From contig WFQM01000270.1 of assembly GCA_015487095.1 (NCBI GenBank), forward strand, positions 1-35,252: a stretch of 35,252 nucleotides of DNA, written 5' to 3'. A model generated the notes under the pieces. It saw nothing but the letters and a program-made list of their open reading frames with translations, was not told the origin of the DNA and did not search any database. The position numbers and the translations under genes were made by a program. Source of the DNA: Gammaproteobacteria bacterium. Lineage in GTDB: Bacteria; Pseudomonadota; Gammaproteobacteria; SZUA-152. How positions within the stretch are numbered: position 1 is the stretch's first letter; each line of letters opens with the position of its first letter. Positions 2,036-18,069 of the stretch are shown here, piece after piece.

Positions 2036-2713
2036 CTAATGGATAAAATAAAACTCAACTTCAAAGCCGGAAATACTGATGACATCTTCCGGCTTGAGGG
2101 CGATGGCTGCCGGGCCGAGTTTTTCGCCATTGAGCAGAACCAGGTCTGATGAGCGGCGGCTTTTTGTGGCAGGCACCGGACTGATGGTGTAGTTGTCCAG
2201 GCCTCGACTGATCAGTGCCATTTTATGGCCTTGAAAACCAATAGTGTTGAATGGTTTGCGTAGTTCCATTACGGTGCGTGCCAGTGGGCCGTTGAGTGTT
2301 CGCAGGCCGGCCAGCGGTTGTCCTTTGATGCTTTCTGCGCGGGATTCCCAGTCCGGTAATACCATTTGGGTTTCATCCAGTTCGGCTTTGATGAACATGG
2401 TGGGTTCATATTGGGTGCTGCCTTCGGTGAGGAAGGTGAATTGGTGGTGTCCCATCTGGATAATGTCGCCGTGCCTGAGTGCCACTTTTTTGATGTGGTT
2501 GCCGTTGACCAGGGTGCCGTTGGTGCTGCCAAGGTCTTCAACAAAGATCTGGTCAGGTTGTGTTTGGCTGATCATGGCGTGGCGGCCGCTGACGGTCAGG
2601 TCGTTTAGCTGGATGTCGTTGGTGTGTTTGCGACCAACACTGAGTGTTTCAGTTTCCAGCGAATGCTCATTGATGATTTCACCGTCCAGTGTGAGGATGA
2701 GTTTACTGTTCAT
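2036..2713 (-). CDS. FHA-domain protein (tandem FHA-like folds), downstream paralogue
   Basis: This 225-residue cytosolic protein starts with a canonical forkhead-associated domain, a phosphothreonine-peptide binding module. The hallmark residues are present: GR at 27-28, SGRH at 42-45, LGSTNGT at 61-67 and NG at 70-71. The second half (about 135-225) looks like another FHA fold that has lost the GR/S-x-x-H binding residues but keeps LNGEKLG and a PEDVISISG strand. It is paralogous to the gene immediately upstream (2808-3611). It is last in an operon with a Ser/Thr kinase and two PilT-like ATPases, so a role reading the kinase's phosphorylation is likely but inferred. No signal peptide or membrane segment is seen. 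The partner is unknown. Confidence 0.88.
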   Translation of the reverse strand: MNSKLILTLDGEIINEHSLETETLSVGRKHTNDIQLNDLTVSGRHAMISQTQPDQIFVEDLGSTNGTLVNGNHIKKVALRHGDIIQMGHHQFTFLTEGSTQYEPTMFIKAELDETQMVLPDWESRAESIKGQPLAGLRTLNGPLARTVMELRKPFNTIGFQGHKMALISRGLDNYTISPVPATKSRRSSDLVLLNGEKLGPAAIALKPEDVISISGFEVEFYFIH

Positions 2714-2807
2714 GCAGGCAAAGTTCCTTGCGAGGTAGTTTTGGCGGGGGCAGAGTGGTTAATGAAATGTTGTTGTAGGGGATATTTAATCAACAATGCT
2801 TTAACCT

Positions 2808-3611
2808 TTAACTCAGATAATAAAATTGTATTTCAAATCCGGCGACATTGATAATGTCGCCTTCACTTAATAAAAACTGTTCGGTGCCCAGTTCTTTTCC
2901 ATTGATTCGTGGTATGTCACTGGCCCGGCGGCTGCGGGTGCCTATAACTGAGGTGATACTGTAGCCTTCCGAGCCGCGTGTGATCAGTGCCATGCGTTTG
3001 CCTTGAAAGCCGATGGTGTTGTAGGTTTTACGTAATTCCATGACGGGTTTCGGGACGAGCCCATCCACCGTGCGCAGGCCGCCCAGGGCGAGGCCGGTGA
3101 CCAGTGCCTGATTGATTTCGTCATCGTAAATAAATTGTGTGTCATCCAGTTCTGCTTTTACAAACATGGTGGGTTCATAGCGGGTTTCCGGTTCACACAT
3201 GTAGGTGATCTGGTGATGGCCAACCTGGATAACGTCGCCGTGCTCAAGTGCAATTTTTTTCACATGATTGCCATTGACCAGGGTGCCATTGGTGCTGCCA
3301 AGGTCTTCAATAAAGACATAGTCGGGAATGCTGGAAATCAGTGCGTGGCGTCCACTCAGGGTTAGGTCATTTAACTGAATGTCATTGCCGTGTTTGCGGC
3401 CAATACTCAAGTTGTGGTCGCTGATGGAAAATTCACGAAGAATTTTACCTTCCAGGGTGAGAATCAGTTTGCGTTCTGGTTCGATAATATCAGCAGGTAG
3501 CGTTTGTGAAGGCTGCTCATGCTCTGGTGCTACAGGATGTGTTTCATCCAGCCCGGGTAGGGTGGTGACGTTATCGGAGTTTGTCGGCTGATGCTGGGTT
3601 GGTTGAGTCAT
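2808..3611 (-). CDS. FHA-domain protein (tandem FHA-like folds), upstream paralogue
   Basis: This 267-residue protein has about 45 polar, probably disordered N-terminal residues, then a canonical FHA domain with SIGRKHGND, TLSGRHA and EDLGSTNGTLVNG, then a degenerate second FHA-like half with INGKELG and SEGDIINVAGFEI. It shares the whole architecture with the next gene, so the pair arose by duplication. Its start overlaps the 3' end of the PilT-like gene upstream by about 40 bases, which implies translational coupling. Known FHA domains bind phosphothreonine; the obvious source here is the kinase encoded at the head of the same operon. The N-terminal tail, rich in Thr, Ser and acidic residues, could itself be a kinase substrate; this is inference. 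Confidence 0.88.
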   Translation of the reverse strand: MTQPTQHQPTNSDNVTTLPGLDETHPVAPEHEQPSQTLPADIIEPERKLILTLEGKILREFSISDHNLSIGRKHGNDIQLNDLTLSGRHALISSIPDYVFIEDLGSTNGTLVNGNHVKKIALEHGDVIQVGHHQITYMCEPETRYEPTMFVKAELDDTQFIYDDEINQALVTGLALGGLRTVDGLVPKPVMELRKTYNTIGFQGKRMALITRGSEGYSITSVIGTRSRRASDIPRINGKELGTEQFLLSEGDIINVAGFEIQFYYLS

Positions 3612-4668
3612 CTTGTTCCCTATATTGTTCGAAGTTCGATTTCAGCCGGGCCTTTCGATAGGCTTCTTCACCGGTGATCAGTTTTTCGTCGAGCAAACGG
3701 CGCAATGCAGTGTCTATGTTTTGCATGCCTTGCAGGGCGCCACCCTGCATCACATTTTCTAATTGTTCGGTTTTACCCTCACGGATAATGTTGGAAGCAG
3801 CCGAATTATTGACCAGAGTTTCCACGGCTGCAAGTCGGCCACGATTATCGGCGGTTTTTACCAGCTGTTGGGAGATGACACCGCACAGGGAAGTTGAGAG
3901 CATGGCACGAATGTAGGGCTCTTCGCCAGGTGGGAATACGTTGATTATCCGGTCGATGGCGGCTGCGGCACCATTGGTGTGCAGGGTGGCCAGAATCAGG
4001 ATACCCATTTCTGCTGCGGTGACCGCGAGACTGATGGTGTCCAGGTCGCGCATTTCTCCGACGAGGATAACATCGGGGTCTTCACGCAGGGCGGAGCGCA
4101 GGGCGGAGGCAAAACTGTCAGTGTGATCGCCGACTTCACGTTGGCTGATCAGACAGCCTTTGGGCATGTGGACATGTTCCACGGGGTCTTCGATGGTGAT
4201 GATGTGGCCTTTGCGTTCGGTATTGATGAAATCAATCATTGCTGCAAGGGTGGTGGATTTGCCCGAGCCTGTGGGGCCGACTACCAGAATCAGTCCTTTA
4301 CGTTGCCGGGCCAGTGCTTTGAGTACGGCGGGCATGTTCAGGGTGTCCAGGTCGGTGACGGAGCTGGGGATGGCACGGAACACGGCGCCCATGCCGCCGA
4401 GGTGGCGAAAGACGTTGACGCGAAAGCGTGATATTCCGGGTATTTCATAGCCAAAGTCGGCACCACCCAGGCTTTCAAAGGTTTGTTTGACCCGTTCTGG
4501 CATGATCTCAAATAACAAGCTTTGGGTTTCATTTTCGGTTAACTCACGGTATTTAACCGGGTGAATTTCACCGCAAAGGCGGATGCGCGGTGGATTACCG
4601 GAGACCAGATGCAGGTCGGACCCGGACTGTTTAATCAGCAGTTCAAGAAAAGCGTTGACGCGACTCAT
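3571..4668 (-). CDS. PilT/PilU-like type IV pilus retraction ATPase (second copy)
   Basis: This 365-residue secretion-ATPase-family protein has the full set of PilT motifs: Walker A GPTGSGKS at 131-138, an Asp box around TIEDPVEHVH, a Walker B stretch DPDVILVGEMRD and a His box TLHTNGAAAAIDRI. PilT hexamers hydrolyse ATP at the inner membrane to depolymerise pilin. Where PilT proper has AIRNLIRE this protein has AASNIIRE. Together with the tandem neighbour it may correspond to a PilT-plus-PilU arrangement, but I cannot assign which is which. It starts 17 bases after the upstream copy and overlaps the downstream FHA gene. No pilin or other pil gene is in the window, so its target pilus is encoded elsewhere. 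Confidence 0.9.
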   Translation of the reverse strand: MSRVNAFLELLIKQSGSDLHLVSGNPPRIRLCGEIHPVKYRELTENETQSLLFEIMPERVKQTFESLGGADFGYEIPGISRFRVNVFRHLGGMGAVFRAIPSSVTDLDTLNMPAVLKALARQRKGLILVVGPTGSGKSTTLAAMIDFINTERKGHIITIEDPVEHVHMPKGCLISQREVGDHTDSFASALRSALREDPDVILVGEMRDLDTISLAVTAAEMGILILATLHTNGAAAAIDRIINVFPPGEEPYIRAMLSTSLCGVISQQLVKTADNRGRLAAVETLVNNSAASNIIREGKTEQLENVMQGGALQGMQNIDTALRRLLDEKLITGEEAYRKARLKSNFEQYREQDDSTNPASADKLR

Positions 4669-4685
4669 GAGTTAGCGCCCATTAT

Positions 4686-5780
4686 TCAGCTGACAGCCAG
4701 GTCAATCTGCGGCAGCAGATCCGGGTCTGTGACAAAGCGTTGGAATTGTTGTTTGTTGGTGGCGTGCAGGTAGGCGTCATCGGGATCGATTTCTTTGTTT
4801 TGCAGTGCTTCCAGCAGTGCTTGGTCCATGGTCTGCATGCCTTTGTCACGTCCGGTTTGCAAAATGGACGGAATCTGGAAAATTTTGCCGGTGCTGATGA
4901 GGTTGGCGATGGCAGGGGTGTTGATAAATACTTCGACAATGGCTTTGCGTCCGCGTCCGTCTACGGTTTTTACCAGTTTCTGGCTGATGACTCCTTGTAA
5001 ATGCTGGGCAAGAAAGTTGGTGGCCTGGGCTTTTTGCTCGGTGGGGGTGGCGTCGATAATGCGGTCCAGGGTTTTGGTTGCTGAGGTGGTGTGCAGGGTG
5101 CCTAGCACTAAATGTCCGGTTTCGGCGGCGGTCATGGCCATTATGATGGTTTCCGGGTCGCGCAGTTCGCCTACCAGAATCACGTCCGGGTCTTCGCGCA
5201 GGGCGGCGCGCAGACCATTGGCGAAGGTGTCAACGTGGGTGCCGATTTCGCGTTGTACCACCAGGGATTTTTGGCTGCGGTGGATGTATTCGATGGGGTC
5301 TTCGAGGGTGATGATATTCAGCCGACGGTTGCGGTTGAGCAGGTCCAGCATGGAGGCCAGGGTGGTGGACTTGCCGGTTCCCGTGGCTCCGGTGACTAAT
5401 ACCAGTCCTTGATGGGCATCGATAAACCTTTCGACGATGGGTGGCATGCCCAGTTCGTGCAGGGAGGGAACATCGGTATTCACTAGCCGGAAGGCAGCAC
5501 CGACACCACTCACTTTGCGAAACAGGCTAACGCGAAATCGTCCCACTTCGTCACTTTGATAGGCAAAGTCGATGTCCCGGCCATTGTCGAAGTCGGTTTT
5601 TTGTTGCGTGTCCAGTATTTCGAAAATCAGGCTTTCCAGTTCCTGATCGGTGAGATCCCGGTATTTAATGGGGATAAGGTCGCCCAAATTGCGTAACAGG
5701 GGGGGCATGCCAACGGCAAAGTGAATGTCGGTGCAGCCTTGCTCGCGGCCGAGTTTCAGGAAGGCGTCGATTCTGGCCAT
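4686..5780 (-). CDS. PilT/PilU-like type IV pilus retraction ATPase (first copy)
   Basis: This 364-residue paralogue of the next gene has Walker A GATGTGKS at 131-138, TLEDPIEYIH, Walker B DPDVILVGELRD and His box TLHTTSATKTLDRI. The N-terminal PAS-like region shows the PilT-type DIHF stretch. It lacks the AIRNLIRE motif, reading AIANLISTGK, as often found in PilU-like accessory ATPases. Its ATG directly abuts the kinase stop codon (TAA at 5781-5783), so the two are co-translated. The family powers pilus retraction and twitching. Placement between a kinase and two phosphopeptide readers suggests the ATPase pair is what the signalling genes control; this is inferred from synteny only. Confidence 0.9.
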   Translation of the reverse strand: MARIDAFLKLGREQGCTDIHFAVGMPPLLRNLGDLIPIKYRDLTDQELESLIFEILDTQQKTDFDNGRDIDFAYQSDEVGRFRVSLFRKVSGVGAAFRLVNTDVPSLHELGMPPIVERFIDAHQGLVLVTGATGTGKSTTLASMLDLLNRNRRLNIITLEDPIEYIHRSQKSLVVQREIGTHVDTFANGLRAALREDPDVILVGELRDPETIIMAMTAAETGHLVLGTLHTTSATKTLDRIIDATPTEQKAQATNFLAQHLQGVISQKLVKTVDGRGRKAIVEVFINTPAIANLISTGKIFQIPSILQTGRDKGMQTMDQALLEALQNKEIDPDDAYLHATNKQQFQRFVTDPDLLPQIDLAVS

Positions 5781-8312
5781 TTAGAGAGCCTCCACTACGG
5801 TTTCCAGTTTTTCGCGCAATTCGTCAAAAGTCTGAAACCGTAGTTCGGGATTGACGGCCATGGCTTTGATGATAACAGCCTCCAGTGATTCGGGCAGCTC
5901 CGGGTTGATCTTTCGCGGTGGAGTTGCCGAGCCTTCCACATGCTGAAACAGGATGGCCATGGATTCGTCACCGGTGTAGGGTGCTGCACCCACAAACATT
6001 TCATAGAGAATGATGCCCAATGTGTAGATGTCGGTACGTGAGTCAATGGTGCGACCACGTACTTGTTCGGGAGCCATGTAGGTGGGAGTGCCTACCAGAA
6101 TGCCACTTTTGGTGAGTCGCGAATCTGCCTTGCGTGCGGCGGCGGCGAGACCGAAGTCAACGATTTTCACCAGGTCGTTATCGTTAATCAGGATGTTCGC
6201 GGGTTTGAGATCGCGGTGTACTACACCCATGGTTTGTGCTTGAGCCATGCCGAGACAAATGCTGCACATCAGTTGGATGCCACGGCGAACTTCACAGGTC
6301 TGTTTTTGTTTTTTGCGTTTATTTAGCTCGTCGGCCAGGGAGTGGCTGGGAAAATATTCCATGGAAATGGCGTAGGACTGATCAATGGTGACCAGATCAT
6401 AAATACGAATAATATTTTCGTGGGTGATCTTGCGGGCATAGCGTAGCTCGTGCATGAAACGTTCGATCATGCTTTGGTCAGCGGCCACATGCGGGTTGAG
6501 GAATTTGAGGATAAACTGATCGCCCACCATGACGTCTTCCACCAGCCATACCACACCAAAGGCACCTTCGCCGATTTTACGAATAACATGGTAGCGATCA
6601 ATGAGCACGCTGTTGGGGGCCAGTCGTGAGGGGTCAAAAACATGCGTGAAGTGCTGGCCGTCATCACCCCGGGTGGTTGTGCTGCCGGATGATGTGAAAG
6701 AGCCACTGGTATGCATGGCTTGCGTTTGTCCGGAGGTGTTGGCGGCAGCCGGGGCGCTGCTGAAATTCAGTGTAGGCTGGTCCTGGACATTCGTTTCTAT
6801 GGGTGCGGATGAAGTGGGGTTGTCTATAACTGTAGCACCATGGGTGGCAGCACCATTGACGCGATCTCCAAAACGCATAATCAGGCTTTGTATGGTTTCG
6901 TTGGCTACAGTACGCACATCATCGGTGCGGGAGTTGATAAGTTGGGTAGCTGCTTCCTGCACCTGCTGAGCATTGCTGTCATCGGTGAGGGTTTCCAGGG
7001 CTCGCAATGCTTCTTTGCGCAGGGCGTTGTTGGTATTGTCGAGCTGTTTGAGCAGGGGGGTGACTGCTTGTTTGTCGCCCAAGGTGGCCAGGGCACGAAT
7101 CACTACCTGACCAGCTTCCGGGTTTTCTTCCATCATGGTCACGAGGTGTGGCACAGCGCGGGTGTCGCCGATGGCCGCCAGGGCATCCACGGCACGCTCT
7201 CGCACCCACCAGTCTTCATCGCGCAGTGCCTCAATGAGTCGATCCACCGCGCGCGGGTCTTTGCTGGTGTTGAGGATTTCCACGGCGGTACGGCGTAAAA
7301 ACTCGTCTTTGTCGGTAATCAAGGCCAGCACGGCATCAAACACTTTAGGGCCACCGATAGCACCCAGCGCATCGGCGGCGCGTACTTTCACCCACCAGTC
7401 CACATCACGCAGGGCATTCAGCAGGTCTTTTACCGCATTTTGATCGCCCACCTCGTTGAGCACTTCCACGGCAGCACGGCGCACATATTCGGATTCGTCC
7501 TGCAATACGGGAATCAGGTGTTTGACTGTGTGTGGTGAGCGGATTTTGACCAGGGTCTCGATGGCTGCTGATTGTACGGTGAGGTCATTGTCACTTAACA
7601 GGGCGCAGATATCGCCGACATTTTCTTTGGCACGAAGTTTGGCCAGGCCATTGAGTGCGGCCTGTCGCACGGCCTTGTTGGGGTCGCTCAGTGCCTTGAC
7701 CAGTCCCTCGCGGCTGGGTGCCGTGTCAAAGCGGGATAACAGTTGAAGAAGATGTGCGCGTACAAATGGTTGATTGCTATCGAGTCGTTGACTGATATCA
7801 GGTACCAGTGCTTCGCTGGCGATGCCGTCCAGCAGGCGATATAAAATGGGCCGTACCTTGCTGTCTACCTGGTCCAGCAGGCCCAGTAACACGTTGGGAT
7901 TGATGCGCTCGGCGTGAGCGGTGAGCACTTTTCCCAAAGCGGTTTTGGAGACTTCCTCACCATCTATAGGCTGGCTGAAGTAGGGGAATAATTCGTTGGG
8001 GTTAAAATCCTGGGCACGTTTGAGCACACGGGTCACACCATCGACGATGCGCTGGTCGCCATGGGCGAGGCTCACCAGAAACAGTGGCAGGCTGCTGTTG
8101 CGCACAAAACCCACTAATAATTGTTCCAGGGTGGCGGTGTGCTGGGGGTTTTCCAATGCTTCGATGAGCTTGGGGATTGCGGGCTCACCAATCTGTTTCA
8201 GTTTATACAGGGCGCGTTTGCCTTCTGCCGTGGCTCCGGCATCCTCAGCGAGGAGGGTGGAAATGGCGCGACTGGTTTTGAAATCGGACAGCAGGCTCAC
8301 GGACAACTCCAT
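5781..8312 (-). CDS. HEAT-repeat Ser/Thr protein kinase (Hanks type)
   Basis: The first half (about residues 40-480 from the ATG) is a long solenoid of HEAT/PBS-lyase-like repeats with recurring blocks such as DVDWWVKVRAADALGAIG and DEDWWVRERAVDALAAIG. A Ser/Gly/Thr-rich linker follows, then a C-terminal eukaryotic-type kinase (about 572-843). The kinase has a glycine loop GEGAFG, a lysine in FILKF, the catalytic HRDLKPAN and DFG, so it should be active. There is no transmembrane segment, unlike PASTA-type PknB kinases, so it is cytosolic and the repeats are probably the sensor or docking surface. Two starts are possible: GTG at 8372 adds 20 atypical residues; I prefer ATG at 8312. It heads the operon with two PilT-like ATPases and two FHA proteins. 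Confidence 0.92.
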   Translation of the reverse strand: MELSVSLLSDFKTSRAISTLLAEDAGATAEGKRALYKLKQIGEPAIPKLIEALENPQHTATLEQLLVGFVRNSSLPLFLVSLAHGDQRIVDGVTRVLKRAQDFNPNELFPYFSQPIDGEEVSKTALGKVLTAHAERINPNVLLGLLDQVDSKVRPILYRLLDGIASEALVPDISQRLDSNQPFVRAHLLQLLSRFDTAPSREGLVKALSDPNKAVRQAALNGLAKLRAKENVGDICALLSDNDLTVQSAAIETLVKIRSPHTVKHLIPVLQDESEYVRRAAVEVLNEVGDQNAVKDLLNALRDVDWWVKVRAADALGAIGGPKVFDAVLALITDKDEFLRRTAVEILNTSKDPRAVDRLIEALRDEDWWVRERAVDALAAIGDTRAVPHLVTMMEENPEAGQVVIRALATLGDKQAVTPLLKQLDNTNNALRKEALRALETLTDDSNAQQVQEAATQLINSRTDDVRTVANETIQSLIMRFGDRVNGAATHGATVIDNPTSSAPIETNVQDQPTLNFSSAPAAANTSGQTQAMHTSGSFTSSGSTTTRGDDGQHFTHVFDPSRLAPNSVLIDRYHVIRKIGEGAFGVVWLVEDVMVGDQFILKFLNPHVAADQSMIERFMHELRYARKITHENIIRIYDLVTIDQSYAISMEYFPSHSLADELNKRKKQKQTCEVRRGIQLMCSICLGMAQAQTMGVVHRDLKPANILINDNDLVKIVDFGLAAAARKADSRLTKSGILVGTPTYMAPEQVRGRTIDSRTDIYTLGIILYEMFVGAAPYTGDESMAILFQHVEGSATPPRKINPELPESLEAVIIKAMAVNPELRFQTFDELREKLETVVEAL

Positions 8313-8393: not shown

Positions 8394-8582
8394 GGCTTAG
8401 GAATGGAACACAATAACTTAACATAAGTGGCGCTCTGATTTAGTTCGTATTCGTTCGTTCTGATTGAACAAAAGTGCAGGAATAGTCGTTCTATTCCGAG
8501 CTTTTGTGATTGAAGAACGGGCGAAGACGGGCTGAAGCAGAGGTGCCAATTGTATGAGTTATTTAATTTCCATTCCTAAGCC
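8394..8582. mobile_element. MITE-like element with perfect 15-bp terminal inverted repeats
   Basis: The 337-base gap between the kinase gene and csoS1D is mostly this 189-bp stretch, bounded by perfect inverted repeats GGCTTAGGAATGGAA (8394-8408) and its complement (8568-8582). The interior holds an interrupted hairpin, CAAAAG / GGAATAG-TCGTT-CTATTCC / CTTTTG, and no plausible gene. The hairpin core resembles that of the element at 1434-1585 (AATAG and CTATT arms), so both may belong to one broad repeat class. No target duplication was recognised. It could also carry the terminator of the csoS1D operon or the kinase promoter. Confidence 0.5.
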
Positions 8583-8649: not shown

Positions 8650-9264
8650 TTACACGCCGCTTAAGCTTTGCACCGCATGTATTGCAGCATGCGCGGCCAC
8701 ATCGATATCCGCTTCTTTTCCTGCCAGCGTCAAACGTCCATAAGCGCCCACCGCACGGGCATCGACCAGCGTTATATTGGAGGCTTTCTCAGCTTCATTG
8801 GCCGCATAAACGATATAACCAGCAGGCTCTGTTTCGAGAATAAACATACTTTGTCCGGGCAAGATCATCGACCCCCGACGATCCTGGCGATTAATCAGCA
8901 CGGCATGATCCGGGGTAATCGCCCGCACCGTTTCACTCCAGGCAACACGACATTTTTGCCGTTCATCCTCCGTAGTGCGCAGCGAATACAATATAGCTCG
9001 ACCCGCTTCAATAACATCACTCTGATCACGGTGGTGAAACACCATGGAACCAAACGCTCTCTCGACAACCTGCTGTCCAAGATGAACACGAGTCGCCTTT
9101 AGCGCTACATCGGTCAAACGATGTATCGCCATACCCGGGGCCACTTCCATCCACAAACAGGCATCACCGGGCACAGGCAGAAAACCCTGTGACACAGTCG
9201 CCATATACGCTGCTAACTGTGGCTGCAACGAGTCAATGAAAACATAGGTTCGCAGTTTAATCAT
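8650..9264 (-). CDS. csoS1D: Carboxysome tandem-BMC shell protein CsoS1D
   Basis: This 204-residue protein matches CsoS1D, a carboxysome shell component made of two fused BMC domains that forms trimeric pseudohexamers with a large gated pore, thought to pass RuBP and other metabolites. Recognisable stretches are [38 protein letters not shown] and [20 protein letters not shown]; the C-terminal BMC domain contains [21 protein letters not shown]. It is at the short end of the family because the N-terminal extension of the cyanobacterial forms is missing. It begins 9 bases after the LysR gene and ends the sbtA-sbtB-cbbR-csoS1D unit rather than the main cso operon. Confidence 0.88.
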
Positions 9265-9273
9265 TATATTACT

Positions 9274-10293
9274 TCATAATTTGGCAACGCGATTACGATG
9301 CCGTGTGGAAAATTCTTCATACAAATCGCGCATACGCTGGCGGATTGATGGCTCACTTGTTTTTGCAAACTCAAGAAATGTCCGGGCAATCAGTGACAGT
9401 TCCTTCCCTTTCAAATGTACAAGATACCAATTACGCTCTATGGGAAATCCTTCAACATCCAACAAATCAACAGGCCCATTGGTACCTTCTAAGGAAAGCG
9501 TGTGCAAAGACAATATAGCAACACCCAGACCACCAACAACAGCGTGTTTTATTGCCTCGTTACTGCCAAGCTCCATGCGCACATTAGGCACAAGTCCATG
9601 TTCTGCAAACAGCTTCATTGCAGTATCACGAATCCCCGAACCCACTTCTCTGGAAATAAAAGGCTCTTCAGCCAGTCTTTCAATACTGATGTTTGATTCT
9701 CTGCATAACGGATGCTCATGGGAAGCCATAACGACCAGGGGATTAGGCGCAAATGGCAAGGTTTCGAGATCCAAACCAGTGCCGGGCGGCCGACCAAGAA
9801 TATATAAGTCATCTTCATTATTATAAATACGCTCAAATATCCGCTCTCTGTTCGTCACTTTTAAAGAGACATCAACACCGGGGTACAATCTGCAAAATGC
9901 GCCAAGGATCTCAGGTGTAAAATATTTTGCTGTACTGACCACTGCCAGACGTAACCGGCCACTGCGCAAACCTTTAATTTCTGCAATACGGCTATCCAGA
10001 TCAGAAAGACTGTCAAAAATATCTCTCACTGCCTGATATAGTTTTTCACCGGCCTCAGTCGCTTTGATCTGGCGGCCTGCCTGATCAATCAATGGCAGCT
10101 CCATCACATCAGTCAATTTCTTTAACTGTATGGATACAGTGGGTTGGGTGATATGCAGCTCTTCCGCAGCACGGGTAAAATTGCCCAGTCTGACAATGGC
10201 TTCAAATATTTGCATCTGCCTGAATGTGGTATGACGAATCAGGTAATCTGGCAAACCACCTTTGAATCTCGACATACTATGAGTAGACATCAT
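9274..10293 (-). CDS. cbbR: LysR-family regulator of carbon fixation (CbbR/CmpR-like)
   Basis: This 339-residue protein has an N-terminal winged helix-turn-helix (FTRAAEELHITQPTVSIQLK, about residues 38-57) followed by a LysR effector-binding domain (about 110-315). The recognition helix TQPTVSIQLKKL and the YLIRHTTFRQMQIFEAI opening are those of the CbbR/CmpR branch, which activates Calvin-cycle or bicarbonate-uptake genes in response to metabolites such as RuBP or 2-phosphoglycolate. It is about 50 bases downstream of sbtB and immediately upstream of csoS1D. Likely targets are the sbtA promoter (about 11772-11811) and the cbbL promoter (19500-19700). The exact effector cannot be told from sequence. 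CmpR-like is the alternative name. Confidence 0.85.
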   Translation of the reverse strand: MMSTHSMSRFKGGLPDYLIRHTTFRQMQIFEAIVRLGNFTRAAEELHITQPTVSIQLKKLTDVMELPLIDQAGRQIKATEAGEKLYQAVRDIFDSLSDLDSRIAEIKGLRSGRLRLAVVSTAKYFTPEILGAFCRLYPGVDVSLKVTNRERIFERIYNNEDDLYILGRPPGTGLDLETLPFAPNPLVVMASHEHPLCRESNISIERLAEEPFISREVGSGIRDTAMKLFAEHGLVPNVRMELGSNEAIKHAVVGGLGVAILSLHTLSLEGTNGPVDLLDVEGFPIERNWYLVHLKGKELSLIARTFLEFAKTSEPSIRQRMRDLYEEFSTRHRNRVAKL

Positions 10294-10342
10294 GCATTTC
10301 CGATTTTGAATATTACGAAAATCGTACTTTCAGGCGTAGGAT

Positions 10343-10651
10343 TCAATTAAATTTATCAGGTGCAATCACCTGAACATCACTGATATAAACGGTAAGGTGG
10401 TAGCCCTTCTTGAGCTTACGCTCAATGCTCTCCAATATAGGCTCCATCCGTTCCTTTGATACAATAACCTTCACCAGAATATTGGAGTCAAAACCACTGA
10501 TATCAGCCTCATAACCAGACGACCCTTCGCCCCGCGCACGTAGAATGGTGAAACCACTCACACCATATTTCTTGAACATGGATACAAGCCTGTCTTCCAT
10601 AGAGGATATGGTAATGATGCTTAAAAGCTTTTCTGGATATAACGTGATCAT
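10343..10651 (-). CDS. sbtB: PII-like protein SbtB, regulator of bicarbonate transporter
   Basis: This small PII-superfamily protein of about 102 residues follows sbtA. PII-like features include the start KLLSIITISSMEDRLVSMFK, a GVSGFTILRARGEG segment where the T-loop begins, and the closing strand YHLTVYISDVQVI. In cyanobacteria SbtB binds adenine nucleotides, including cAMP, and docks on trimeric SbtA to regulate bicarbonate uptake. The ORF track starts at 10678, but the internal ATG at 10651 has a good AGGAG ribosome site 9 bases upstream and is preferred. Pairing with sbtA makes the assignment firm at family level; which ligand it binds is not visible. Confidence 0.85.
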   Translation of the reverse strand: MITLYPEKLLSIITISSMEDRLVSMFKKYGVSGFTILRARGEGSSGYEADISGFDSNILVKVIVSKERMEPILESIERKLKKGYHLTVYISDVQVIAPDKFN

Positions 10652-10683
10652 ACTTATTTGCTCCTGAGCGGTTTGCATCGAAC

Positions 10684-11706
10684 CTATGCAGCAGCCATCA
10701 TCTTAACGAGGCTGTGATACAAAGGGATTCCAATAAGTACATTGAAAGGAAAGGTAATACCAAGAGACAAGGTAAGATAATACGAGGGATTGGCTTCTGG
10801 CACGGCCAATCGCATAGCCGGCGGCACAGCAATATAGGAGGCACTAGCAGCCAGAACAGCAACCAATGTTGCGCCACCAACACTGAAACCAAGCATTGAA
10901 TGACCAATAAACGCCCCTGCTACCCCCCCTACTAATGGCATAACAACACCAAACACCGCCAGAACAAGTCCAACCTTCTTGAAATCACCAATACGACGGG
11001 CAGCGACCATCCCCATCTCGAACAAAAATAAACACAGCACCCCCATGAAAATATCATCGATAAATGGGAAAAGTTTGCTCATTCCCGAAGGTGTCGATAT
11101 TGCGCCGATAATCATCGAACCAATCAGAATAACAACACTGCCGTTCGTGAATGCATCACGCAACAAGGATCCGAAACCATTTTCCGGGGCATTATCATTC
11201 GGCATACCGGATCCTGCACCCGAGGAAGAGACATTACTCAAGGCTTGGGAGCGTCTTGCTTTCGCGGCAAGCAACAAGCCGACAACGATGGCTGGCGACT
11301 CCATAACGGCAAGCATAATCAAAGGGTAAGTTTCATAAGTCACCCCGATATTATCCAGGTACGCAATGGCCGTCAGAAAAGTGCCTGCGCTCACTGAACC
11401 ATAATGAGCCGAAATCGCAGCCGCATCCATCGGATTAACCTTGCGGGTTGCGACAAGACATAAATACCCGATAATCGGTAGCACAAAACCAAGAACCAGA
11501 GCCCACACTATCGAGGTGAGCGCTGTCACCATGTCGGACTTCGCTAATTCATAACCACCATGCAAACCAATGGCCATGAGCAAATAGATCGACAGAACTT
11601 TTGCTAAATCTGGGGGGAAACGTAAATCCGATTTTATGACACGCGCGATAAAACCTAGCGCAAAAAATAGGACAGCGGGCAATAATAAACTTTCCAGGCT
11701 CGGCAT
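10684..11706 (-). CDS. sbtA: SbtA-type sodium-dependent bicarbonate transporter
   Basis: This 340-residue polytopic inner-membrane protein has about ten hydrophobic helices and matches SbtA, a high-affinity bicarbonate importer that raises the cytosolic inorganic carbon pool for carboxysomes. Characteristic stretches are AIGLHGGYELAKSD, ISAHYGSVSAGTFLTAIAYL and AVMESPAIVVGLLLA in the first half and an inverted-topology second half with LFEMGMVAARRIGDF and ASASYIAVPPAMRLAVPEAN. A cytosolic Ser/Gly/Asn-rich loop separates the halves. A ribosome site AAGGG lies just before the ATG. It opens the sbtA-sbtB-cbbR-csoS1D operon; a promoter with an overlapping palindrome is seen upstream. Confidence 0.92.
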   Translation of the reverse strand: MPSLESLLLPAVLFFALGFIARVIKSDLRFPPDLAKVLSIYLLMAIGLHGGYELAKSDMVTALTSIVWALVLGFVLPIIGYLCLVATRKVNPMDAAAISAHYGSVSAGTFLTAIAYLDNIGVTYETYPLIMLAVMESPAIVVGLLLAAKARRSQALSNVSSSGAGSGMPNDNAPENGFGSLLRDAFTNGSVVILIGSMIIGAISTPSGMSKLFPFIDDIFMGVLCLFLFEMGMVAARRIGDFKKVGLVLAVFGVVMPLVGGVAGAFIGHSMLGFSVGGATLVAVLAASASYIAVPPAMRLAVPEANPSYYLTLSLGITFPFNVLIGIPLYHSLVKMMAAA

Positions 11707-11771
11707 GTTATCCCTTCGCAGGTTTCCATCGTAATAAAAACAAGCAGTTGCTCATTAATCACGGTGCAATC

Positions 11772-11811
11772 TAAATCTACAGATTTAATGAATATTTTGA
11801 TTGTTTGTCAT
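11772..11811 (-). promoter_or_regulatory. Candidate sbtA operon promoter with overlapping palindrome
   Basis: On the minus strand a -35-like ATGACA (11806-11811) is followed after 17 bases by a -10-like TTAAAT (11783-11788). A perfect 7-2-7 palindrome, TAAATCTACAGATTTA (11772-11787), covers the -10 and the likely start site about 70 bases before sbtA. An AT-rich dyad there is a plausible binding site for the LysR protein encoded in the same operon. Function is inferred. Confidence 0.45.
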
Positions 11812-11858
11812 CGAGCCAATTCATTGAAAAACCCGATTTAAAATGAAGCTTCGAACGA

Positions 11859-12038
11859 TCAATCAGGCCAAACTCTGCGCGACACAAACGCTCGTGGCTT
11901 TCCTTCCATTTTCTTCGTATCGTTCGTTGTTACCTTTTTTACACTAGTGGCCGCCGCACCCTCATATTTTGCTTCAGCCACTGCATTTTTATCTTCAGGT
12001 TTATTCGCAGTGGAACCCCGTTTTTTACTTATAGCCAT
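11859..12038 (-). CDS. Small disordered basic protein, candidate orphan McdB
   Basis: This 59-residue ORF is just under the ORF-track cutoff. It starts MAISKKRG, is rich in Lys, Ala, Thr and charged residues with almost no hydrophobic core, and ends SRRVWPD with a single tryptophan three residues from the end. An AGGGTG ribosome site precedes the ATG and it follows the acRAF-like gene by 28 bases, so it is the last gene of the carboxysome operon. Alpha-carboxysome McdB proteins, partners of the McdA ParA-type ATPase that spaces carboxysomes, are described as small, disordered and carrying an invariant tryptophan at the C-terminus; size, composition, W and position fit. No mcdA-like gene is in the window. 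The McdB assignment is an inference. Confidence 0.6.
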   Translation of the reverse strand: MAISKKRGSTANKPEDKNAVAEAKYEGAAATSVKKVTTNDTKKMEGKPRAFVSRRVWPD

Positions 12039-12066
12039 AATTCACCCTTAACAGTAACACTTTCAC

Positions 12067-12339
12067 TTAATGATCAGTTTTTGCATCAGGAGCAGGTATG
12101 AGTTGATCCACCTGACGTGCATAGCGCAACATATCTTCATTAACTTCGTCCACATCATCCTCAGAACGAAGCGTAATAGAGACATGGGTTCGACCAAAAC
12201 TCATATCAGGATAATAGCCTTCACTTTCGGACAACTCAGCGACCCGCTCCAAAAAATCACGGGTCTGTTGATAATCAGAAAACTCGATACGCCGCTCAAG
12301 CTGAGCCGGTTTTTTACGTGTAAACCAGTCCGAACTCAT
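12067..12339 (-). CDS. acRAF-like RuBisCO assembly factor (pterin carbinolamine dehydratase-like)
   Basis: This protein of about 90 residues is related to pterin-4a-carbinolamine dehydratase (PCD), as in FSDYQQTRDFLERVAELSE, YYPDMSFGRTHVSITL and the acidic end. In alpha-carboxysome operons this PCD-like protein is known as acRAF, a RuBisCO assembly chaperone rather than a pterin enzyme. Canonical PCDs carry a paired catalytic histidine motif (EHHP); here the equivalent region reads EGYYPDM, so catalysis is unlikely. The ORF-track start (12393) overlaps the ferritin-like gene; ATG at 12339 has a GGGAGG site 5 bases upstream and is preferred. Confidence 0.82.
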   Translation of the reverse strand: MSSDWFTRKKPAQLERRIEFSDYQQTRDFLERVAELSESEGYYPDMSFGRTHVSITLRSEDDVDEVNEDMLRYARQVDQLIPAPDAKTDH

Positions 12340-12368
12340 AACAACCTCCCTAGGTAAAAGGTCAACAT

Positions 12369-12827
12369 TTATGTCGTCACCATTTTTTGCCACCAGTCAT
12401 TCACATGACTGGCATGCTGCCTTTCTTCACTGAGTAAGGCATCAAAAAAAATCCGGTTTTCGCAGTCACCCGCCTGGATACAATACTGAACAGCGCTCTC
12501 GTAAAATTCTACAATTTCATGTTCAAGTTCGATCACATGCTCTACCAACTGTGACAATGACCCATTTAGTTTGGGAGGTCGCAAACAACTTGCGTTGGGC
12601 GCAAACCCTAGTGCAACCATTCGACCAATAATTCGCTCAGCATGCTGTAGCTCATCCTGCGCTTCGTTACGAAACCGTTCACTTGCCTCATGCACTCCCC
12701 TCATTGTCAGGAGACTGGATAATGACAAATACTGCTGTACAGCAGAAAGTTCATAACTCAACGCGCGCCCAAGATAACCAGGAATGACTGCATCCTGACT
12801 CATGACTGAGGGTTCACTACTCATCAT
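12369..12827 (-). CDS. Ferritin-like/bacterioferritin-type protein of the carboxysome operon
   Basis: This 152-residue four-helix-bundle protein has ferritin-like ligand positions: Glu in LSYELSAVQQYLSL, E-x-x-H in AQDELQHAERI, an EHEIVEFYE helix and a final E-x-x-H in LLSEERQHASHV. A bacterioferritin-like gene is a regular member of proteobacterial cso operons between csoS1 and the PCD-like gene, with unproven function; iron storage or redox protection of carboxysomes are possibilities. It starts 47 bases after the second csoS1 gene. Two adjacent ATGs exist and neither has a clear ribosome site. Confidence 0.82.
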   Translation of the reverse strand: MMSSEPSVMSQDAVIPGYLGRALSYELSAVQQYLSLSSLLTMRGVHEASERFRNEAQDELQHAERIIGRMVALGFAPNASCLRPPKLNGSLSQLVEHVIELEHEIVEFYESAVQYCIQAGDCENRIFFDALLSEERQHASHVNDWWQKMVTT

Positions 12828-12874
12828 TCAAAGAAGGGCAAGGCAGGATAACTCCGCACTCGCCCATCCCGAAA

Positions 12875-13171
12875 TCAAGCTTTCTTGCCGTCAAGAATGG
12901 GCTCAACTTCCTTGTGCGGACGCGCAATAATGTGTGCAGCCACCAAACCATCGCCAACCCGCTCACACGCATCAGCACCCGCACGTACAGCAGCGTTAAC
13001 CGCACCCGTTTCGCCGCGCACCAGTATGCTGACATAACCACCGCCGACAAATTCACGACCGATCAAGCGTACTTCTGCAGCTTTGGTCATCGCATCAGCA
13101 GCCTCGATAGCAGGAACCAGACCGCGGGTTTCAATCATGCCTAAGGCAATACCATAAGTATCATTTGCCAT
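12875..13171 (-). CDS. csoS1: Carboxysome hexameric shell protein CsoS1 (second copy)
   Basis: This 98-residue single-BMC protein forms the hexagonal tiles of the alpha-carboxysome facets. Signature stretches are GIALGMIETRGLVPAIEAAD, EVRLIGREFVGGGYVSILVR and the nearly invariant AHIIARPHKEVEP. It differs from the preceding copy only at the extreme N-terminus, one T-to-S change in the core and the C-terminal tail (ILDGKKA). A GAGGAG ribosome site precedes the ATG. Which of CsoS1A, B or C it represents cannot be decided. Confidence 0.96.
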   Translation of the reverse strand: MANDTYGIALGMIETRGLVPAIEAADAMTKAAEVRLIGREFVGGGYVSILVRGETGAVNAAVRAGADACERVGDGLVAAHIIARPHKEVEPILDGKKA

Positions 13172-13224
13172 GGTGTTATTCTCCTCTAGGGTGTTTATAG
13201 ATTACAAAGTGCCTTTTGGGCTGC

Positions 13225-13527
13225 TTATGCTTTTGGGCCACTCATGCTGAGCACAGGCTCAACTTCTTTGTGAGGACGCGCAATAATGTGTGCAGCCACT
13301 AAACCATCGCCAACACGTTCACAGGCATCAGCACCCGCACGTACAGCAGCATTAACAGCACCTGTTTCGCCACGCACCAGTATGGTGACATAACCGCCGC
13401 CGACAAATTCACGACCGATTAAACGTACTTCAGCGGCTTTAGTCATTGCATCGGCTGCTTCAATAGCGGGAACCAGACCGCGGGTTTCTATCATTCCAAG
13501 CGCAATACCATAGTTGTTTTCGCTCAT
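13225..13527 (-). CDS. csoS1: Carboxysome hexameric shell protein CsoS1 (first copy)
   Basis: This 100-residue BMC-domain shell hexamer is almost identical to the next gene over the core, with the central pore region GREFVGGGYV conserved. The C-terminal tail is VLSMSGPKA. The two genes are also very similar at DNA level, suggesting recent duplication or gene conversion. It follows csoS4B by about 50 bases in the usual cso gene order. The pore is thought to pass bicarbonate and RuBP. Confidence 0.96.
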   Translation of the reverse strand: MSENNYGIALGMIETRGLVPAIEAADAMTKAAEVRLIGREFVGGGYVTILVRGETGAVNAAVRAGADACERVGDGLVAAHIIARPHKEVEPVLSMSGPKA

Positions 13528-13578
13528 TACCTTTTCTCCGTCTTGATGAATTAAAAATTTTCTCGCACTTCATTACAA

Positions 13579-13848
13579 TTACACTGTTTCCAATTGACCA
13601 TTGTCGACATCCCAATAATCAATAATTCCACCTACCGTCAGATCCGTTAATACTGTCGGGTCTTCACAGGCATAACGTGCCGCCGACCCGCTGATCACAA
13701 AAACCCAGTTACCTTCCCGGGAACCACAAGGGTCTACCGCCACCTGAAGTTTACCGCTGGTGTTTCGCAGCACACGCAAACTGTACTGCTGCAAGCCAGG
13801 ATGGCGCTGGGTACATACCAAAGTATCCACCACCTGCAATATCTCCAC
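13579..13848 (-). CDS. csoS4B: Carboxysome vertex protein CsoS4B (pentamer)
   Basis: This 89-residue bacterial-microcompartment vertex protein (EutN/CcmL family) forms pentamers that cap the corners of the icosahedral shell. Family features are the start MEILQVVDTLVCTQRHPG, the core VAVDPCGSREGNWVFVISGS and the end GIIDYWDVD. It starts 5 bases after the csoS4A stop, and the two share the GIIDYWD ending, so they are paralogues. CsoS4A and CsoS4B are minor components but are needed for a sealed shell in studied species. Confidence 0.95.
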   Translation of the reverse strand: MEILQVVDTLVCTQRHPGLQQYSLRVLRNTSGKLQVAVDPCGSREGNWVFVISGSAARYACEDPTVLTDLTVGGIIDYWDVDNGQLETV

Positions 13849-13853
13849 TGGCT

Positions 13854-14099
13854 CTATTCCTCATCCCAGTAGTCAATGATGCCCACAATCGTCAAATCAC
13901 TGGGATATTCTTTGCTACCCGCAGCCTCACGAGCAGCCGAACTTCCTACACATAACACCCAGTCCCCCGGCGAACATCCTACAGAATCCACAGCGACCAA
14001 CCGGCTACTGCCGTCAAGCACGACCTGTAAATGTTTATGTTCCATGCCGGGTATGCGATTAGTGGCAACCAGAGGTTTTTCCACCTTACATATTTTCAT
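13854..14099 (-). CDS. csoS4A: Carboxysome vertex protein CsoS4A (pentamer)
   Basis: This 81-residue EutN/CcmL-family pentamer reads MKICKVEKPLVATNRIPG at the start, VAVDSVGCSPGDWVLCVGSS in the core and GIIDYWDEE at the end. The ORF track begins at 14168, inside csoSCA; the true start is ATG at 14099, which overlaps the csoSCA stop in a TAATG junction and has a GGAGA ribosome site. That overlap implies translational coupling. Confidence 0.95.
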   Translation of the reverse strand: MKICKVEKPLVATNRIPGMEHKHLQVVLDGSSRLVAVDSVGCSPGDWVLCVGSSAAREAAGSKEYPSDLTIVGIIDYWDEE

Positions 14100-15586
14100 T
14101 AATGTTTCTCCTGCCCGTTCAGTGCCAGAGAACATCCTACTGTTTCTACACAAGCATCCGCATGGCAATCTCGCACCATCAACAGGGTATGCAACATACC
14201 CTTGTCATGTAATGCCGCGAAACGGTGTTTCAATGCAGCATCAAGCTGATGACAACGGTCAACTGCACGTTCACGCGCACCTGGAACCTGACCGTGATAA
14301 TCATTTCGAATTACCACTGGAACCGGCAGCCCACGTGACACATTCAATTGACTAAATATTTTTATGCCTACATCCAGATCTCTGGCACCTTCTTCGACTG
14401 TTTTCAAATAAGCAAAGTACGTCAAATTGCGTAACTGTATTTCTTCAAAACCAATGCCCATGCCAATAAAGCGTTCTTGATGACCTATGTCTTCGTATCG
14501 CCCGTTGTAATACTCACGAACATAATCCACTTGCAACATATTGCTGTGAAACAATTTGGCAACAAACCGCAACATGCCTTCGGCAGGTGCAATCCCCTGA
14601 GTCTGTGCCAAACCTGCAACAACGTTATATATTTCCTCACTCGTATCACCAGCATTTGCGACAGCATAAACATCACTGCAATCAACATAACGCACTGCAT
14701 CAATGCCGCCATCAGCATCTGACAAGTGAATACGAATCGCGTCGTTATCGGTATCAATGCCAATTAACAACAGGTCAATGGACGCACCACAACAAAAACT
14801 GTTTTCAACACCCTGCTGAAATGCCTGCAAACGTGACAGCGCACCCTCAGCAGCTTTTACGGCATCACTACCATGCGCTGCACAACCTTCTACATCAGGC
14901 GCGCTTGTACTGTAGTGATAAACAGCAGCTTTCAAATAACGTGTCGCCGCATCAACGCTATTGGGCCTTGATTCCCGATAGCGCAACATTTCTGTCTCGA
15001 CCCATTTCTGCAAACTGTCATCAATGTCAAACATTGCACCAGCGTAAGACTTACGGCGCACCGATTTATACGGCAGACGCAGTACATACCGAATAACGTG
15101 TGCCAAACGCCCATCTGCACAAGGCGATACATCCACCGTGTGAAAACCACACTTTTCAATAAATGCCTGAAAATTCTCATCGTCCAAACCCACCAAGGGT
15201 TTGTCGGTAAAAAACTCATCCGACATGCGACGAAACGTTTCAAAAACACACCACACATACAACTGGCCAACATCCACAGACTTTATCCATGCGTCTGCTA
15301 ACAAAACATCGGGCAATTCAAAGCCCAGATACTCTCGGGCAACAGCTTGCGCACGACGTGAAAAATCTGCCTCATGTTGAAAACCGGAAATCCCTTTCAA
15401 ACACAATTCAATGTTCGCAAAAGCCTGTTTTACTTTTTGCTCGTAGCGATAGAGATGTAAATTTTCACCCCCTCTATCCGACCTATAACCAACCTTATAA
15501 GCAGCACCAGCCTGCGGTGCAGAAGGGCGCATTACAGTCCGCGCACGCTGCAAAGGTCTCCTGCTTTTGGCTCTGGCATTAAACAT
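14099..15586 (-). CDS. csoSCA: Carboxysomal carbonic anhydrase CsoSCA (CsoS3)
   Basis: This 495-residue carbonic anhydrase converts bicarbonate to CO2 inside the shell. The catalytic domain carries the expected zinc and proton-transfer residues: CADGR (C156, D158, R160) and H224 with C235 in HYSTSAPDVEGC. The third domain is the symmetry-related, inactive copy, with NSFCCGASIDLLLIGIDTD. The N-terminal tail is basic and disordered (ARAKSRRPLQRARTVMRPS); in Halothiobacillus this region tethers the enzyme to RuBisCO. Length is close to the usual 510-520 residues. It follows csoS2 by 129 bases and overlaps csoS4A. Confidence 0.95.
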   Translation of the reverse strand: MFNARAKSRRPLQRARTVMRPSAPQAGAAYKVGYRSDRGGENLHLYRYEQKVKQAFANIELCLKGISGFQHEADFSRRAQAVAREYLGFELPDVLLADAWIKSVDVGQLYVWCVFETFRRMSDEFFTDKPLVGLDDENFQAFIEKCGFHTVDVSPCADGRLAHVIRYVLRLPYKSVRRKSYAGAMFDIDDSLQKWVETEMLRYRESRPNSVDAATRYLKAAVYHYSTSAPDVEGCAAHGSDAVKAAEGALSRLQAFQQGVENSFCCGASIDLLLIGIDTDNDAIRIHLSDADGGIDAVRYVDCSDVYAVANAGDTSEEIYNVVAGLAQTQGIAPAEGMLRFVAKLFHSNMLQVDYVREYYNGRYEDIGHQERFIGMGIGFEEIQLRNLTYFAYLKTVEEGARDLDVGIKIFSQLNVSRGLPVPVVIRNDYHGQVPGARERAVDRCHQLDAALKHRFAALHDKGMLHTLLMVRDCHADACVETVGCSLALNGQEKH

Positions 15587-15715
15587 TTTATTTACTTGTG
15601 CCCTACTTCATCATTCCAGGATTTGGCGTCAAGGCCCAGTGAGCTACTGCCCACTGGCCGCTTGGTTATTACAACAAGTCATACAAACAGGAAAACCCTA
15701 TCAACGACTCTCAGG

Positions 15716-17608
15716 CTACCCTCTGGCACCACCTGATACGGTTATCATTGCACCTTTTTCAGTGTTTCCACTTCCGCCTGTCACTTTCGAGTCACTGGGT
15801 GGCACTTCTTCGTTACGCTTTGGCGCTACACCTGGCATCGCGTTCATGGGTCCCCGTATCGTCACATTACGGCGGGTTGCAGAGCGCCCCTCAGTACCGG
15901 TGACATGTTCACCCCGGTCCCAATCATTACCTGTGACAGTCAAACCCGTTGAGAGACCTTCACCCGTCACGCGGGAAACCTTGGCTTCTTTTGCTTTTTC
16001 AACCGGCGCTCTCGGTACAGCAACGGGAGACTCATTGCGGCGGCCACTGGATCTGAACTGTTCCGTCCCGGTCACTTTCCCCTCACCGAGTGAAAAAGTG
16101 CCACTAACACGCCCCTGTTCATAGCTCGTACCCGTCACCGCCGATGCAACCACGGGTGCTTCGCTCGCATGAACGAGTGCTTCGCTGGCATGATTCGGTG
16201 TCGCAATACTGAAAGTTCCCCATGGAGCCCCTTCCAATGGCTGTGGAAAATCACTATCACCTACCTGAGCAGGTGTTGTGCCGCAGACATTGATTTGCTC
16301 ACTGTCGCCCAAATAAGCCGTTCCGCTTACCGACTGACAACTGCCTTTTTCTGTTCCTGTCAATCCGGACAAACCGGGTTGCACACCACTGATATCGCGG
16401 CCGGTATTACTTTTCATTGGCAAAGAAGTCCTGGCCTGTATGGCTTTAACTTCTTGCGGCATACAATAATCCAGCGTTTGCTCAACACCCGCATAGGGTG
16501 TCCCGGTAACTGCCTTGCAGGTGCCCAACTCATCCCCGGTGACTGAACGGGATCGCGCAGGCTTTGATCCTGAGACAATCAGCCCTCGTGTTGTTTGCGA
16601 ATGGCTGACTTTCGCGCTTCCCGGCTCTGGCTTCGACTGACAGAAATTGTCGTACTGCTCACGGCCAACATACTCATTACCCGTCACATTCCGGCAACTC
16701 CCCCGCTCATCACCCGTGACACGCTCGCTGCGCCCCACTTTTCCACCACCTGTCACTGTTGATCCACTCAGTGTTTCTGTGGTTTGCACTTTTGCAGGCA
16801 CGATTGGCAAAACCTTAGGCGAATCCGCCTGGCAAAAATCAGTAAAAACTTCACTCGACATGTAGTCTGTACCGGTTACTGAGCGACACAAACCTATCTC
16901 GTCACCTGTTGTTTTTTCGCTATGCGCAACCTTTGTACCTGTCACTCCGGTTTCGGGTCGCGGACGCTTTCGACCAACCGGCGCAGGCGCTGCGGCACCC
17001 TGAGCACCCGTGGCACTCCGTTGTGCGCGAATACTACGGGCCAGTTGCCGACCTGATATATCAGGGTTCTGGTGCTTTACCATCTGCGCAGAACTCAGAC
17101 CTTTACGGAACACATCGTGTCCGCTTTTGCCATGTTTCGCTAACATCTCACGACGCAATCGGGAATTAATCCGCCCTGCATTGCTCGGTGTTACCTTCTT
17201 TGGCTCCTGGCTGCGGCGACGGCTCCCCGACTTGGGTGACACTCGCGACAACGCGGAAGTAGATGGTACGTTTTTCGCGCAATCCCCTTCACCGTTGCAA
17301 CCACAGCCACAGTCTTTTTTCTCTTGAGCCTGATTACGTGCACTGCGCATCGTATCCGCCATGCGCTGACGATCCGTAGAAGCAACACCCGACTTGCCTT
17401 GTTTAGACATGGCCCGTCTTCGTGCCTGAGACGCAGCACGCCCCGTGCTCGTCACCGTAGCTGGACGTCTTGCTACCGCAGCCGCCACGGGAGGCGTGCT
17501 CGACACCGCTGGAGCACTTGTGTTGCTTCTGGCAGACGAGACATTTTTGCCACTCACTTGTGCTTCGCGACGCGCCATTGAGGCAGCACGACCTGACAGC
17601 TTTTGCAT
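15716..17608 (-). CDS. csoS2: Carboxysome scaffold protein CsoS2
   Basis: This 630-residue intrinsically disordered scaffold links RuBisCO to the shell. The N-terminal region has four basic helical repeats of the GRAASMARREAQVSGK type, which bind RuBisCO in known CsoS2 proteins. The middle region has about four M repeats built on VTGDE...C...VTGT-x-Y...C (for example ERVTGDERGSCRNVTGNEYV), which contact the shell. The C-terminal region has VTGNDWDRGEHVTGT and ends in ITVSGGARG, the conserved shell-anchoring peptide. It is shorter than the roughly 870-residue Halothiobacillus protein and has fewer M repeats. A cysteine-rich insert, CGCGCNGEGDC, sits near residue 100. I saw no convincing slippery site for the two-form frameshift known elsewhere. 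Confidence 0.95.
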   Translation of the reverse strand: MQKLSGRAASMARREAQVSGKNVSSARSNTSAPAVSSTPPVAAAVARRPATVTSTGRAASQARRRAMSKQGKSGVASTDRQRMADTMRSARNQAQEKKDCGCGCNGEGDCAKNVPSTSALSRVSPKSGSRRRSQEPKKVTPSNAGRINSRLRREMLAKHGKSGHDVFRKGLSSAQMVKHQNPDISGRQLARSIRAQRSATGAQGAAAPAPVGRKRPRPETGVTGTKVAHSEKTTGDEIGLCRSVTGTDYMSSEVFTDFCQADSPKVLPIVPAKVQTTETLSGSTVTGGGKVGRSERVTGDERGSCRNVTGNEYVGREQYDNFCQSKPEPGSAKVSHSQTTRGLIVSGSKPARSRSVTGDELGTCKAVTGTPYAGVEQTLDYCMPQEVKAIQARTSLPMKSNTGRDISGVQPGLSGLTGTEKGSCQSVSGTAYLGDSEQINVCGTTPAQVGDSDFPQPLEGAPWGTFSIATPNHASEALVHASEAPVVASAVTGTSYEQGRVSGTFSLGEGKVTGTEQFRSSGRRNESPVAVPRAPVEKAKEAKVSRVTGEGLSTGLTVTGNDWDRGEHVTGTEGRSATRRNVTIRGPMNAMPGVAPKRNEEVPPSDSKVTGGSGNTEKGAMITVSGGARG

Positions 17609-17644
17609 GGCTTTTACTCCTTACTTGAACTCTCTAACCTTGTA

Positions 17645-17674: not shown

Positions 17675-17696
17675 CTCCCCTGCTCATTTATCAGGA

Positions 17697-18035: not shown

Positions 18036-18069
18036 AATTTTCTCCTGATTTTCTTGGGCAAACAGGGCG

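Follow-up and report, generated by a model that had tools for sequence, protein, structure and literature searches.

On balance, the five-gene operon described here and its partner genes appear to encode a conserved cytosolic phosphothreonine module centred on two specialised PilT-family ATPases; its target would be a machine of the type IV pilus family whose genes lie elsewhere. All five ORFs are located on the minus strand of the analyzed stretch of DNA (35,252 nt, hereafter the window) and encode one Ser/Thr kinase with HEAT repeats, two ATPases of the PilT family and a pair of FHA proteins:

5781-8312, minus strand: HEAT-kinase, 843 aa (Pfam HEAT_2, 2e-53; Pkinase, 1e-49)
4686-5780, minus strand: PilT-A, PilT/PilU-family ATPase (Pfam T2SSE, 3e-48; TIGR01420, 429.6 bits)
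3571-4668, minus strand: PilT-B, PilT/PilU-family ATPase (Pfam T2SSE, 5e-45; TIGR01420, 436.9 bits)
2808-3611, minus strand: FHA-1 (Pfam FHA, 2e-20)
2036-2713, minus strand: FHA-2 (Pfam FHA, 3e-23)

The kinase start was placed at the ATG at position 8312, with an alternative in-frame GTG possible at 8372. The genes had been described in a first-pass annotation as abutting or overlapping. This holds for the kinase and PilT-A genes, which abut, and for PilT-B, which overlaps FHA-1 by 41 bp, but not for FHA-1 and FHA-2, which are 94 bp apart; the gap between PilT-A and PilT-B is 17 bp. By a crude Kyte-Doolittle scan, none of the five proteins has a clear membrane span; the highest 19-residue hydropathy mean (1.85) was found within the ATPase domain of PilT-B. 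The ORFs and the Pfam and NCBIfam assignments thus bear out the initial reading of the locus as a soluble kinase with a HEAT solenoid, two PilT-like ATPases and two FHA proteins. Neither a pilin nor PilC nor any further pilus gene was recognized within the operon; the first-pass annotation had also noted the lack of a pilin nearby.

Conservation of gene order and linked genes

The order kinase-PilT-A-PilT-B-FHA(-FHA), on one strand, was found in all 26 distinct intact loci (i.e. those not cut by a contig end), which represent at least nine families of Gammaproteobacteria. The sample includes 25 larger fetched regions and GTDB relatives, and tblastn was used to recover locus genes masked by long antisense ORFs in the ORF table. 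In most loci the spacing between the kinase and PilT-A genes ranges from -4 to +7 bp. Within the order to which the source genome belongs, a search with an FHA profile identified the FHA family in 22 of 24 genomes. Among 369 genomes of the class, members of the operon FHA family, from nine families, scored 294-416 bits, while a second FHA group did not exceed 189 bits. At every fetched locus of the operon FHA family, PilT-B lies beside the FHA gene, accompanied by PilT-A wherever the contig reaches that far. Random gene order in relatives, the outcome named in the first-pass annotation as evidence against the grouping, was not found; conservation in 26/26 loci indicates that the order is not due to chance and is under selection.

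Further genes are associated with the operon. A gene encoding a DUF6812-like protein precedes the kinase gene in most loci that have enough upstream sequence. The Pfam DUF6812 assignment is direct for loci L015 and L016 and was made via BLAST for the gammaproteobacterial members. A fold search gave no significant match for this protein, and a phylum-wide search for the DUF in 399 drawn genomes yielded a match in the source genome only. Genes for a PP2C phosphatase and/or a divergently oriented FHA-GAF-HD-GYP protein are located nearby in 18 of 24 loci; six have neither, and the HD-GYP gene is not nearby in about half of the loci. All 12 FHA-GAF-HD-GYP relatives checked retain an intact HHExxDGxGYP motif. 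In the source genome, the DUF6812-like, FHA-GAF-HD-GYP and PP2C genes are grouped on contig C276, outside the stretch on which the first-pass annotation was based.

The kinase and the FHA proteins

The kinase is composed of a HEAT solenoid of approximately 480 aa, a Thr/Gln-rich linker (residues ~485-565) and a C-terminal Pkinase domain (574-827), with all Hanks-type catalytic motifs intact (GEGAFG, ILKF, HRDLKPAN, DFG and APE). Its orthologues, with identities down to ~46%, occupy the same locus position in relatives. TQ is abundant in the linker (18 versus 8 expected) and T-x-x-hydrophobic is also enriched, in both cases according to a shuffle test that ignores relatedness. An alignment of 25 sequences revealed no positional conservation of the linker Thr sites, and an invariant Thr that was apparent in the first seven sequences was lost once all 25 were aligned. 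Assignment of the kinase to an anti-phage system (PD-T4-6, MADS or BREX PglW) was rejected: the matches are confined to generic kinase or HEAT regions, those to kinase families do not extend beyond the kinase domain and its margin (residues 553-842), and those to NCBIfam MAD6 and PglW are far under the cut-off. No anti-phage system matches were obtained for the PilT and FHA proteins.

FHA-2 comprises a canonical FHA domain, a linker containing YEPTMFI and DETQMV (T105 and T115, respectively) and a degenerate C-terminal FHA domain. In FHA-1, an N-terminal extension of ~45 aa is followed by a canonical FHA domain, a linker with YEPTMFV and DDTQ, and again a degenerate C-terminal FHA domain. The phosphothreonine-contact residues of the first domain (GR, SGxH and [ST][ST]NGT) are conserved across 36 sequences. 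The C-terminal half is without the binding residues and was missed by Pfam; its relationship to FHA was revealed by profile comparison (hhalign of the N- versus the C-terminal half; 84%, E 7.5e-6).

T105 and T115 (FHA-2 numbering) are each invariant in 36/36 sequences. T105 is situated in YEPTMF[IVL], with I, V or L at position +3 in all 36, while T115 belongs to a [DE][DE]TQ-type site with I, V, L or M at +3 in 35. At pThr+3, FHA domains often favour aliphatic or acidic side chains, and by their sequence the T105 and T115 sites look like FHA-binding phospho-sites. The linker between the FHA halves, which carries both residues, has a pLDDT below 50 in the predicted model and is probably disordered; the confidence of the whole FHA-2 model is modest (pTM 0.47). 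In a fold search, the FHA half of the model best matched GarA and OdhI, with the FHA domain of DgcB among the matches.

GarA/OdhI with the kinase PknG of Actinobacteria are among the closest known systems (PMC8546545), and intramolecular switching through its FHA domain is known for GarA (Nott 2009, cited in PMC8546545). As in these proteins and in DgcB of Bdellovibrio, candidate Thr sites are located near the FHA domain of the operon proteins, possibly permitting a switch through their own FHA, and the kinase shares with PknG the presence of a repeat scaffold (TPR in PknG, HEAT in the operon kinase). However, the acceptor Thr of GarA and OdhI precedes a single FHA domain, whereas the sites described here follow the FHA domain and a second, degenerate one is present. 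The genetic context also differs, as the neighbours are PilT ATPases rather than metabolic enzymes or, as in DgcB, a GGDEF domain.

A separate operon, widespread in Gammaproteobacteria (L170-L184), encodes a kinase (~850 aa), a PP2C phosphatase and an FHA protein in which a T-[MLIV]-x-[ILM] site (FEKTMII type) is found after the FHA domain. This trio resembles the operon in its kinase, PP2C and FHA components and in the T-M-x-I site following the FHA domain, but its kinase is a different one (matching in the kinase domain only), it lacks PilT genes, and its FHA proteins reach at most 189 bits, compared with 294-416 bits for the operon family. On contig C336 of the source genome (L188:6503-8631), an FHA gene, whose product carries a T-M-x-I site (ATMMI) after the FHA domain, is followed 0.3 kb downstream by the gene for a divergent PilT-like ATPase.

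The PilT-A/PilT-B pair and its possible control

Both ATPases exceed the 319-bit cut-off of the NCBIfam PilT/PilU model TIGR01420 (430 and 437 bits). Their Walker A, Walker B and His boxes are intact and conserved over 24 (PilT-A) and 27 (PilT-B) orthologues. The AIRNLIRE motif of PilT, present as AIRNLIREAK in the PilT of the source genome, is degenerate in PilT-A ('aianListgK') and is not retained in PilT-B either ('AasNiiReGk'). In a 97-row tree, PilT-A and PilT-B form two separate clades, each with 100/100 support. The PilT of the source genome (C322, adjoining yggS- and proC-like genes) falls apart from them in an 11-row PilT clade, and its PilU-like protein (C42, adjoining PilM-PilQ genes) is placed in yet another clade. 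Since PilT-A and PilT-B lie outside the PilT and PilU clades, they are not orthologues of these proteins, and their identification as ordinary PilT or PilU is ruled out. They resemble PilT/PilU in that they belong to TIGR01420, keep the Walker A/B, Asp and His boxes intact, are of comparable length and occur in tandem, but constitute two clades outside the canonical ones, with AIRNLIRE degenerate in PilT-A, and are tied to kinase and FHA genes instead of the yggS-proC-pilT-pilU context. Their earlier description as retraction ATPases is in keeping with the PilT family, the intact Walker and His boxes and coexistence with canonical PilT/PilU and T4P genes, but not with orthology, and powering of pilus retraction by them is putative.

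Near relatives in the tree include tandem PilT pairs adjoining a DUF6812 gene (L015 and L016), a pair from Auribacterota (L022) and, in CSSED10-310 (L017), a pair adjoining HEAT-protein and TPR-kinase genes. The branch uniting PilT-A/B with the distant tandem pairs has 97/94 support, with inner forks open and some rows long, so the deep history of these proteins can be sketched only tentatively. In the CSSED10-310 bacterium (L017:436-6207), genes for the HEAT protein, two PilT-like proteins and the TPR-kinase are consecutive, and this row is possibly a distant version of the module.

The source genome also encodes canonical PilT, PilU-like, PilM and PilQ proteins, T4aP and MSHA genes. PilM was found in 16 of 17 operon-bearing genomes versus 265 of 352 other genomes of the class, a co-occurrence that is only suggestive (Fisher p = 0.085). 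The five operon-bearing genomes tested for further ATPases all have ones of PilB and PilT/PilU size, and full-score PilQ is present in five of six tested. The exception, G058, carries the operon with neither PilM nor full-score PilQ found. Such co-occurrence is compatible with a type IV pilus role but is not proof of one, and we judge the case for and against a type IV pilus as the target machine to be evenly balanced. The first-pass annotation had proposed pilus retraction under phosphorylation control. The conserved FHA contact residues, the invariant Thr residues and the PP2C gene linked in many relatives strengthen the phosphorylation part of this idea, while control of retraction by the operon is circumstantial.

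Writer, readers, eraser, second-messenger branch and motors very probably make up one functional unit. The HEAT-kinase would be the writer, with its solenoid probably docking partners, and is fairly likely to mark T105 and T115. Phosphorylation would most likely fall on the TMF[IV] and TQx[IV] sites in the linkers of the FHA proteins, and perhaps also on the linker of the kinase. FHA-1 and FHA-2 would serve as readers, in each of which the phosphate-binding FHA domain and the degenerate one are joined by a linker bearing two candidate kinase sites. The role of eraser would fall to the linked PP2C, and the FHA-GAF-HD-GYP protein would tie the phospho-state to c-di-GMP turnover. The FHA domains may then bind the phospho-sites in cis, as in a GarA/OdhI/DgcB-type switch, or in trans; by docking to the kinase or to the PilT-A/PilT-B motors, they would switch motor activity on a machine of the type IV pilus family encoded at another site. 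Control may run onto the motor, or from a motor serving as a sensor with c-di-GMP output. With more reservation, we propose a dedicated writer-reader-eraser circuit in which FHA docking links c-di-GMP turnover to a pair of retraction-type motors, with an older core of PilT pair, HEAT, kinase and DUF6812 in distant bacteria.

That unrelated signalling and motor genes have become neighbours by chance or neutrally is highly improbable. Kinases and FHA proteins are indeed common and often linked, as in the second operon type, but here a strict order with near-zero gaps extends over at least nine families, and in distant genomes, too, related PilT pairs are accompanied by genes for HEAT, kinase or DUF6812 proteins. 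Information might instead flow in reverse, with PilT-A/B hexamers sensing pilus load or ATP state and signalling via the HEAT-kinase to c-di-GMP through the FHA-GAF-HD-GYP protein (surface sensing). The divergent linkage of an intact FHA-GAF-HD-GYP gene in about a dozen relatives, its position next to the DUF6812-like gene in the source genome, and the presence of canonical PilT/PilU that could perform retraction all fit this scheme; we nevertheless regard it as unlikely, because about half of the loci have no HD-GYP gene nearby and contact of PilT-A/B with pili is putative.

It is likewise doubtful that the kinase module regulates a PilT-A/B pair driving a process other than T4aP, i.e. MSHA, a T2SS-like machine or a cytoplasmic task. 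The clades of both ATPases lie outside PilT and PilU, pilus genes are absent nearby, one operon-bearing genome has no PilM matches, and further PilB/GspE-type ATPases and secretins are encoded in the genomes (in the source genome, of MSHA type). Against this stand TIGR01420 scores well over the PilT/PilU cut-off and the further PilT/PilU-size and PilB-size ATPases of all operon-bearing genomes tested.

Among systems that act on related machines, the ArnA/ArnB network of Sulfolobus with the kinases ArnC/ArnD acts on the archaellum (PMC4307647, PMC4858521). It similarly employs an FHA protein, Ser/Thr kinases and a phosphatase to control a type IV pilus-family filament, but its control is exerted on archaellum operon expression, its ArnB belongs to the vWA proteins and PilT-like ATPases are not part of it. 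FHA-bearing CpaF of class III, a Tad pilus ATPase with an FHA domain (PMC12019362), also couples FHA to a pilus ATPase, but the two are fused in a single Tad-family protein and no HEAT-kinase operon is described there. No description of an FHA/PilT/kinase/HEAT operon was found in the open literature searched. Known control of type IV pilus motors runs mainly via c-di-GMP, chemosensory systems and gene expression. If the preferred reading is true, a phosphothreonine module on a specialised PilT pair adds a direct route of motor control and gives an undescribed PilT clade and the DUF6812-like proteins a likely role; its predictions are testable residue by residue at T105 and T115 of the FHA proteins.

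The upstream repeat and the window neighbours

The region directly upstream of the kinase gene contains a repeated element:

8397-8579, minus strand: MITE-like repeat of 183 bp with terminal inverted repeats (~40 genomic copies, of which many lie at contig ends)

Contig C276 ends 148 bp into this repeat, and its copy is 100% identical to that of the window, most of the ~40 genomic copies being less identical. Moreover, the flank of the C276 repeat and the kinase-side flank in the window jointly match an uninterrupted site of loci L008 and L167. The shared repeat and the matching flanks make the join of the kinase to carboxysome genes in the window suspect: either insertion of the repeat separated the DUF6812-like gene from the kinase gene and the carboxysome join is an assembly chimera, or copies of the repeat recombined. 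The repeat is a likely cause of assembly breaks. The five-gene operon itself is unaffected by the suspect upstream join.

Beyond the repeat, the translations at 8650-19527 indicate a carboxysome cluster encoding shell-type proteins, a bacterioferritin-like protein, a CbbR-like LysR regulator, an SbtA/P-II-like pair and the large and small subunits of RuBisCO. At the opposite end, positions 32-1383 contain a CRISPR array of 21 repeats (GTCGCGCCTTCACGGGCGCGTGGATTGAAAC) with a period of ~65 bp and a degenerate last copy; no cas genes were recognized within the window. Between this array and the operon, an N-acetyltransferase-like gene (1588-1975) is split across two overlapping frames, and an intact 166-aa version occupies the same place in the relative L167.
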